From: an uncultured Collinsella sp.
GTDB taxonomy: Bacteria > Actinomycetota > Coriobacteriia > Coriobacteriales > Coriobacteriaceae
Direction of reading: 5' to 3'
Length of the DNA: 17,721 nucleotides
NCBI GenBank assembly: GCA_900550815.1
Contig: URTW01000019.1
Span: 1-17,721, forward strand
Shown here: piece after piece, positions 4,544 to 5,510 of the stretch
Position numbering within the stretch: position 1 is the first letter of the stretch
How the letters are laid out: every line of letters begins with the position of its first letter
Made by a program: the position numbers and the translations under genes
The notes under the pieces: model-generated
Told to the model about the DNA's origin: nothing
Database searches by the model: none
The model's input: the letters and a program-made list of their open reading frames with translations, nothing else

Positions 4544-4954
4544 ATGGACGAAGAGCTTGATTACCTATGGGAGACCCTGGGCCTCGAGATCACTGCCGAC
4601 CTTTGGCCCGAACGGGACAAAATCCATCCCACACTGCGCCCCGCCATTACTGTGGTGCAGGCAAAATACCGCCGTGCATCCTTTTTGATCATGCGGATGT
4701 CATGGCACGCGGGACTCCCCGACCTTAAGCGAATCCAGGCAAGCCTCGTCGAGCTGTCCGGCATGCCGACCGTCATATCCGAGGCGCACCTGGAGCAGCG
4801 CCAGCGCGAGCGACTGCAACAGCAGCGGATTCCCTTTATCTGCCCCGGCGTCCAGGCATATCTGCCCTTTATGGACGAGGAGTACTGGAGCGGCAAGCCC
4901 AACAAGCACGTAAAAGTCTACGATCCGCACGAATGGGCACAGCTGGCGGACTGA
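4544..4954 (+). CDS. Hypothetical protein, possibly a fragment of a regulator family
   Basis: A 136-residue soluble protein with no signal peptide or membrane segment, and one of the few plus-strand genes here. ATG 4544 follows a GAGG at short spacing (about 4 nt). The visible features are an N-terminal acidic stretch, a central LIMRMSWHAGLPDLKRIQAS, a Gln/Arg-rich helix (LEQRQRERLQQQR), and IPFICPGVQAYLPFMDEEY. The last motif resembles the (I/V)PF-PG-Q-YLPF segment that, from memory, occurs in the N-terminal half of some Firmicutes proteins annotated as MarR-like regulators, where a winged helix follows. Here the protein ends about 30 residues after the motif, with no DNA-binding domain, so it could be a shortened paralogue. 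A weak promoter candidate is TTGGCA (4465-4470) with GATAGC 17 nt on. Function unknown. Confidence 0.6.
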   Translation: MDEELDYLWETLGLEITADLWPERDKIHPTLRPAITVVQAKYRRASFLIMRMSWHAGLPDLKRIQASLVELSGMPTVISEAHLEQRQRERLQQQRIPFICPGVQAYLPFMDEEYWSGKPNKHVKVYDPHEWAQLAD

Positions 4955-4973
4955 CTGAGGCAGGCCCGCCGGC

Positions 4974-5143
4974 GGAAAGTGCGTCCCAGATTTCAAGCTC
5001 AAACTGGCCCCTACTTTCCCGTCGAGCCCTCAACCGGAAACCGTGTCCCGCAATCGAAGCTCAGAATGGGACGTGCTTTCCGCAACCGGCCACTTTGGGA
5101 AAGTGCATCCCATTCTGGAAGCGAATTCCGGGTCGCACTTTCC
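4974..5143. repeat. Tandem array of three 46-nt palindromes at 62-nt period
   Basis: Units at 4974-5019, 5036-5081 and 5098-5143 are each exactly 46 nt, with 16-nt spacers (5020-5035 and 5082-5097) of dissimilar sequence. Each unit begins GGAAA and ends CTTTCC, with a central GAAGC or CAAGC. The left-arm consensus is GGAAAGTGCGTCCCA and the right arm is close to its reverse complement, giving six half-sites in alternating orientation. Units 2 and 3 pair at 13 and 12 of the outer 14 positions (wobbles included); unit 1 is more decayed. The array fills the gap between two convergent genes and ends 7 nt before the stop of the ArsC-like gene. There is no T tract and no coding potential. It may be a lineage-specific intergenic repeat, an mRNA end structure or a protein-binding array. 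Confidence 0.75.
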
Positions 5144-5150
5144 GCAGCCG

Positions 5151-5510
5151 CTACAGCAACGCCTCGGCCCAAGCCGCTTCCCTAAAGCCGGGAATCGCAA
5201 AGTCGTCGCCCACCAGCAGCGGACGCTTGACCAGCATGCCGTCGGTCGCCAGCAGCTCGTAGCACTCCCGATCCGTCATGCCCGCATCCAGACGCGCCTT
5301 CAGGCCCAGCTCTCGATATTTCATGCCCGACGAATTAAAGAAGCGCCGCACCGGCAGCCCCGAACGAGCAATCCAGGTCGCAAGCTCATCAGCCGTGGGA
5401 TTGTCCAAAACGATATCGCGATCGATATACTCTACCCCATGTTCGTCCAGCCATGCCTTGGCCTTCTTACAGGTCGAGCACTTGGGATATTCAACAAACA
5501 GTACAGTCAT
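5151..5510 (-). CDS. ArsC/Spx-family thioredoxin-fold protein
   Basis: A 119-residue protein starting MTVLFVEYPKCSTCKKAKAW, with a CxxC pair at Cys11 and Cys14 at the head of the first helix, then LDEHGVEYIDRDIV, IARSGLPVRRFFNSSGMKYRE (about residues 48-68), and the late MLVKRPLLVGDDFAIPGFRE. This order and length match the ArsC/Spx/YusI family. Members include glutaredoxin-dependent arsenate reductases and the redox-sensing regulator Spx; the CxxC pair resembles Spx/YusI-type proteins more than classical single-Cys ArsC. No arsenic genes are adjacent, so a general thiol-redox role is as likely as arsenate reduction. ATG 5510 has GGAGG 6 nt upstream. It lies 92 nt downstream of mupG with no clear terminator between, so it may be read as the tail of the mur operon or from its own promoter. 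Confidence 0.85.
   Translation of the reverse strand: MTVLFVEYPKCSTCKKAKAWLDEHGVEYIDRDIVLDNPTADELATWIARSGLPVRRFFNSSGMKYRELGLKARLDAGMTDRECYELLATDGMLVKRPLLVGDDFAIPGFREAAWAEALL

Follow-up and report, generated by a model that had tools for sequence, protein, structure and literature searches.

Arrays of inverted GGAAA-N6-CCC half-sites at fixed spacing in the Collinsella aerofaciens clade: possible protein-docking sites with a BIME-2-like build

A family of short repeats with a fixed geometry is present in Collinsella. Its half-site is 14 nt long and reads GGAAA-N6-CCC, the half-sites form inverted pairs at an offset of 32 nt (the units), and the units are strung together at a period of 62 or 61 nt. 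Only two blocks of the half-site, GGAAA and CCC, are conserved. The array analysed here is one copy of this family, which, in the genomes sampled, is limited to the C. aerofaciens clade. From comparison of sequences, the case for and against is about evenly balanced that such arrays are protein-docking sites, resembling BIME-2 of E. coli in build and lacking traits that define REP elements.

The window (the whole stretch of DNA that was analysed, 17,721 nt) is from a member of the C. aerofaciens group. The nearest compared genome is G001, which has 68% of the window's sampled words in common with it, and a C. aerofaciens record matches the array region at 99.0% identity across 201 bases. The preliminary description had claimed three units of 46 nt, two spacers of 16 nt and six half-sites in alternating orientation, and this was confirmed at 4974–5143 (Table 1); the script calls for the half-sites were 4974 (+), 5005 (−), 5036 (+), 5067 (−), 5098 (+) and 5129 (−). 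The array begins 19 nt after the stop of its left neighbour, and 7 nt lie between the array and the 3′ end of the arsenate reductase family gene.

Table 1. The array in the window and the genes on either side of it
Feature	Positions	Strand	Remarks
Unit 1	4974–5019 (46 nt)		Half-sites 4974–4987 (+) and 5006–5019 (−); centre 18 nt
Spacer 1	5020–5035 (16 nt)		Read from sequence
Unit 2	5036–5081 (46 nt)		Half-sites 5036–5049 (+) and 5068–5081 (−); centre 18 nt
Spacer 2	5082–5097 (16 nt)		Read from sequence
Unit 3	5098–5143 (46 nt)		Half-sites 5098–5111 (+) and 5130–5143 (−); centre 18 nt
Left neighbour, hypothetical protein	4544–4954	+	No Pfam match; matching C. aerofaciens record: "hypothetical protein"
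Right neighbour, arsenate reductase family protein	5151–5510	−	Pfam ArsC, E 1.5e-13; convergent

The geometry was determined in 238 loci (1.44 Mb, many loci being overlapping or orthologous). Half-sites above threshold numbered 1599 (a single shuffle gave 89), of which 1549 were at most 130 nt from another. The step from a plus to a minus half-site was 32 nt (697 cases) and that from minus to plus was 30 nt (474) or 29 nt (78), any other step occurring at most 13 times. Chaining of the half-sites into units gave 167 distinct arrays of one to eight units: one unit in 31, two in 33, three in 63, four in 22 and five to eight in 18. Steps between units were 62 nt (259) or 61 nt (43) in 302 of 309 cases, and there were almost no indels within units. 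The claim that selection acts on the geometry fits this rigid spacing of half-sites and units. The period had also been described as close to six turns of DNA, which would put all units on one helical face; with 10.5 bp to the turn, 62 nt corresponds to 5.9 turns, and the half-site steps are 32 and 30 (or 29) nt. As many as 165 of the 167 arrays lie clear of called genes (24 of these are at locus ends, and the gene calls are crude); the two that do, L206 and L214, were left out of the locus grouping and later counts. A convergent setting was found for 76 of 141 classed arrays; among the gaps of 60 nt or more in those loci, the figure was 101 of 463 (Fisher p 2e-12, with orthologous loci counted repeatedly).

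Of 43 Collinsella genomes, 22 had 8–30 matches each to a strict pattern for the 46-nt unit and the other 21 had none; the reversed control of this pattern had no match in any of the 43. A looser pattern was matched in 22 of 396 genomes of the class: 21 in the genus, with 13–45 units each, and G370, with one match. The array region itself was matched in 14 of 39 relatives, all 14 of the same genus and mostly with many matches per genome. Titles of array loci from named genomes read Collinsella in 75 of 80 cases among the matches listed; those without such titles (L130, L132, L139, L145, L201) were left out of the geometry and co-variation sets and later counts. Thus, the consensus search across the genus proposed in the preliminary description, for copy number, spacing and context, found many copies, and their presence and 62/61-nt spacing in relatives exclude the chance local duplication that the preliminary description had set as the alternative. 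Absence of the family from 21 genomes of the genus means that its role is not essential to the genus. A phage or plasmid origin was rejected: the strict pattern was found in no viral contig, the array matched no phage record, and the one match to the array in the plasmid collection was a 0.9-Mb record with housekeeping genes. This record, NZ_OY725717.1 (899,693 bp; "plasmid 6" of C. aerofaciens TSDC17.2-1.1; L352–L355), carries gltB, smpB, ftsX, sufB and asnS; it is probably a contig of the chromosome. No description of such arrays was found in the literature on Collinsella repeats, as covered by open-licence PMC papers and the accessible part of PMC8040213.

When arrays were grouped by both flanks, 173 arrays fell into 44 loci. 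Divergence between orthologues was counted in ungapped pairs of 75–99.5% identity (177 pairs in 26 groups, many pairs being non-independent). It was 0.9% in GGAAA (35/3740) and 1.9% in CCC (43/2244), versus 12.6% in the N6 between the blocks (565/4488), 9.5% in the centres (642/6732), 8.4% in the spacers (265/3152) and 8.5% in the flanks (1087/12780). Most arrays had been fetched by motif, which biases the set toward intact motifs. A control less exposed to this bias used interior units that were placed by the period alone and counted if both arrays held another exact unit (72 pairs); differences were 8/730 in GGAAA, 0/438 in CCC, 108/876 in N6, 115/1314 in the centre and 100/1168 in the spacer, and by locus (n = 14) the core was below centre plus spacer in nine, with the reverse in none. 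At the window locus, fetched in nine positive genomes by the neighbouring protein alone (14 units), 1/140 bases were off consensus in GGAAA and 4/84 in CCC. The earlier statement that centres and spacers are unconserved needs correcting for the centres, which are kept in part: C or T occupies position 19 in 205 of 210 half-sites (counted without typing), positions 17–21 and 29–30 have an orthologue divergence of 2.9–7.2% versus 9.5% in the whole centre, and the units have a polarity.

The arms of a hairpin kept by selection should change together, and the preliminary description had proposed a test for such compensatory changes. In 105 units differing pairwise at more than eight positions, 324 of 630 cells at arm positions 6–11 agreed, versus 316.4 in shuffles (sd 10.6, z 0.72), and a smaller first set gave z 0.14 (65 units); co-variation is thus lacking, which argues against the hairpin. 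The refutation rule of the preliminary description therefore gives a divided answer, spacing in relatives speaking against chance and the arms against a hairpin. In the positive control, a family of 67-nt palindromes, 564 of 616 cells agreed versus 521.1 (sd 8.2, z 5.2, 28 elements), a score of which part may reflect common ancestry of subfamilies. This REPIN-like family is represented in the window at 2549–2615, has co-varying arms, GTTGCGGTGRAATANGGACT, and is present in 23 of the 43 genus genomes, namely in every array-positive genome (22) and, as one copy, in G045. Pairing had also been claimed between units, 5062–5081 matching 5098–5117 at 17 of 20 positions; this is right by inspection, and the RNA fold of the stretch spanning the two has −29.2 kcal/mol (z −6.0). 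As a general alternative fold, pairing between units was rejected, adjacent arms of neighbouring units being not clearly above shuffles (224 pairs, z 1.46). Thus, the retention of GGAAA and CCC while N6, centres, spacers and flanks diverge, taken together with arms that do not co-vary, points to selection on a DNA half-site and its spacing, not on a hairpin.

A docking array for a DNA-binding protein, one of the roles suggested at the outset, fits both the rigid spacing and the conservation of the two blocks between orthologues. GGAAA and CCC, about one helical turn apart, may be read by a protein which would bind half-sites on duplex DNA, with two bound per unit and nearly on the same helix face. 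Binding would be cooperative along the array, and the array would serve, in the manner of BIME-2, as a site for docking on the chromosome or for organising it. The family may have begun REP-like, and would now change mostly by loss or exchange of units between short arm sequences held in common. Docking is supported by the fixed steps that were kept while other bases diverged, and by the polarity. Against it stand the lack of the family in 21 of the 43 genus genomes and the gain and loss of loci between strains, and the conserved blocks count against it too, as they would be equally expected from recognition by a transposase.

Several hallmarks distinguish REP/BIME elements: they are extragenic; copies alternate; the REP is an imperfect palindrome and forms a stem-loop; one end has a GTAG or CGTC tag; a RAYT gene is flanked by copies; and gyrase, IHF or DNA polymerase I is bound. 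Of these traits, the Collinsella arrays share the extragenic position and the regular alternating spacing. Self-pairing of the half-site is limited to G1–C14 and G2–C13, plus A4–T11 where base 11 is T (from column counts), which leaves it without the REP stem-loop. CGTC can be read at half-site positions 9–12, though positions 9–11 vary. A REPIN is an inverted pair of REPs moved by a RAYT, and its arms pair. Like a REPIN, the smallest array is a single inverted pair at fixed distance (31 of the 167 arrays); unlike a REPIN, its arms do not co-vary, and the 67-nt family fits the REPIN far better than the arrays do. The arrays are not filed as REP or REPIN, because the motif does not fold on itself, the arms do not co-vary and none of the RAYT-like loci examined has the repeat on its flanks. 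E. coli BIME-2 elements, according to the accessible part of PMC2817692, consist of REP sequences repeated in tandem with alternating orientation, and they bind DNA gyrase. The Collinsella arrays are like them in being extragenic, in having a short motif in regular alternating orientation, in their variable copy number and in their limitation to a clade; they are unlike them in that the 14-nt half-site has two conserved blocks and no stem of its own, the arms do not co-vary and no RAYT gene with flanking copies was found among the 32 RAYT-like loci examined. The Neisserial CGTC-1/dRS3 clusters, by the description in the accessible part of PMC3733652, are likewise short inverted repeats clustered between genes and without a dedicated transposase, and the arrays are likened to them by that description only; unlike the arrays, the Neisserial CGTC elements have stems of 8–9 bp.

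Y1-transposase-like genes (PF01797) are present in 37 of the 43 genus genomes, array-positive and array-negative alike. One RAYT-like family (L283, L287, L289, L291–L294, L296, L297, L299, L321–L331), with 71–100% identity, is present in 21 of the 22 positive genomes, the exception being G007; the negative genomes have distant members only (best E 5e-51, 39%), with 0/21 at that similarity. This match in distribution is weak evidence, because it is to be expected of every gene of the clade, and the 67-nt family has it too. All 21 members of the RAYT-like family have an open frame; a serine is present at what we take to be the position of the catalytic tyrosine in 17, the residue presumed to be the second histidine of HUH is missing in 11, and four are intact. 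The median dN/dS, for pairs with dS over 0.1, is 0.30 for degraded genes (125 of 136 pairs) and 0.10 for intact ones (5 of 6 pairs). This clade-specific, mostly degraded RAYT-like gene is a candidate for the array-binding protein. A RAYT gene flanked by arrays was looked for and rejected: none of 32 RAYT-like loci (20 + 12, some from the same genomes) has paired half-sites beside the gene, and lone half-site matches above 8 bits number eight, in six of the 32. The RAYT-like genes at L284, L285, L286, L288, L298, L300 and L301 are flanked by short repeats of their own, which by eye share GGGAC.

The alternative that survives best, although rather unlikely, is a mobile element of REP/REPIN type: carried around as single-stranded DNA by a transposase of the HUH (RAYT) type, with the blocks as recognition sequence and with no role for the host. 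The BIME-like alternation, the extragenic placement and the nearly identical distribution of the RAYT-like family favour this, as does the orientation bias relative to replication, which would be expected of lagging-strand insertion such as is reported for IS608. In addition, at L300 the RAYT-like gene of a negative genome adjoins GGGGACGCACC, which by eye resembles the half-site read backwards. However, known RAYT targets are stem-loops and the arms lack co-variation, RAYT-like loci lack paired half-sites, two polymorphic loci (L026 and L118) revealed neither target duplication nor clean insertion, and the units have diverged at most loci. As to the proposal of a hairpin repeat mobilised by a transposase elsewhere, a transposase may have spread the family, but the absence of paired half-sites from the 32 loci goes against it.

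At one and the same locus, the number of units varies between strains by whole units, from one to three at the window locus, and in strains without some units the join is, by inspection, in arm sequence common to two units. Whole loci are also gained or lost. In a search for joined flanks in nine positive genomes, L026 had three units in two genomes, one unit in one and none in four (in which the intergenic sequence differs), the flanks being far apart in two; L118, with an array in G009, had none in seven genomes, another palindrome in one, and a unit cut by that palindrome in G012. At L347 (G012:C12:115150–115850), an array unit is interrupted by another REPIN-like palindrome (the TAGCTAATTTGGGACGGGG family), as if inserted there. 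An inert minisatellite, i.e., an ancient repeat that recombination alone maintains and reshapes, is improbable: it would account for the differing unit numbers and for joins in short common arm sequences, and the arms could be kept alike by conversion among units, but conversion should not spare N6 (12.6%) beside blocks at 0.9–1.9%, and indels within units are almost absent. Transcribed hairpins, acting as an attenuator, a bidirectional terminator or the mRNA 3′ stabiliser suggested in the preliminary description, are very improbable and were disfavoured, for although placement is often convergent and the single units of the window have better folds than shuffled sequence (z −2.3, −2.4 and −4.5), as inverted repeats tend to do, the arms do not co-vary where those of the positive control do, no terminator-like site (a G+C-rich hairpin followed by a T run) occurs in the window at 4900–5250, Rfam at gathering thresholds matched two tRNAs alone in the window and nothing at the array, and RNA has no need of fixed spacing.

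The docking reading draws in part on polarity. Half-sites were typed as A or B by the bases after CCC, using positions 17 and 30 of the oriented centre; an apparent conservation of T at these two positions was therefore rejected, being set by the typing itself. Typed units (n = 105) were AB in 65 cases (42.7 expected), AA in 22 (33.2) and BB in two (13.8), and 16 had no clear type; neighbouring units had the same direction in 135 cases and opposite directions in 40. With the origin placed at dnaA, A-to-B pointed toward the origin in 15/17 typed units of G040, 18/21 of G014 and 22/29 of G024. By locus, with 17 loci joined by hand, the polarity was toward the origin in 12 versus 3 (p 0.035), two being mixed or uninformative; one of the three exceptions is the window's own locus, and this contrary locus and the counts themselves weigh against docking. 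Four G001 loci were typed and left out of the polarity counts; in a rough mapping by eye, one of the four falls toward the terminus. Between co-directional genes, arrays pointed against the genes in 23 cases and with them in nine (p 0.02), so that effects of replication and of transcription are not separated. On the way from origin to terminus, only one of the 17 loci is past the 62% mark (p 0.005, with the cut-off of 0.62 picked after the data were seen), versus 7/16 copies of the 67-nt family in G040 (p 0.017 against the joined arrays) and 6/20 in G014 (p 0.10). Tests of position within single genomes are weaker (Kolmogorov–Smirnov p 0.049 in G040 and 0.16 in G014; Fisher p 0.02 and 0.37). 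These modest statistics suggest that units are polar toward the origin and that arrays avoid the terminus side; the origin-side bias would also be explained if old repeats outlast, in conserved origin-side DNA, those lost elsewhere. A more specific form of docking, in which the arrays would be polar, origin-proximal docking sites of a clade-specific chromosome-organising protein, namely a domesticated RAYT, is a long shot; it is based on the 21/22 distribution, the degraded catalytic residues, the open frames and a dN/dS of about 0.30.

BIME-like arrays have long been known and have, to our knowledge, no agreed function. The Collinsella arrays are a separate, clade-limited system with a BIME-like architecture in a common gut bacterium. 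Here, sequence comparison alone parts the features that are retained, two short blocks at an exact spacing, from hairpin pairing, which is not, and this separation makes the docking idea directly testable. The degraded RAYT-like gene, with its nearly identical distribution, may serve as a concrete first candidate for the protein that binds.
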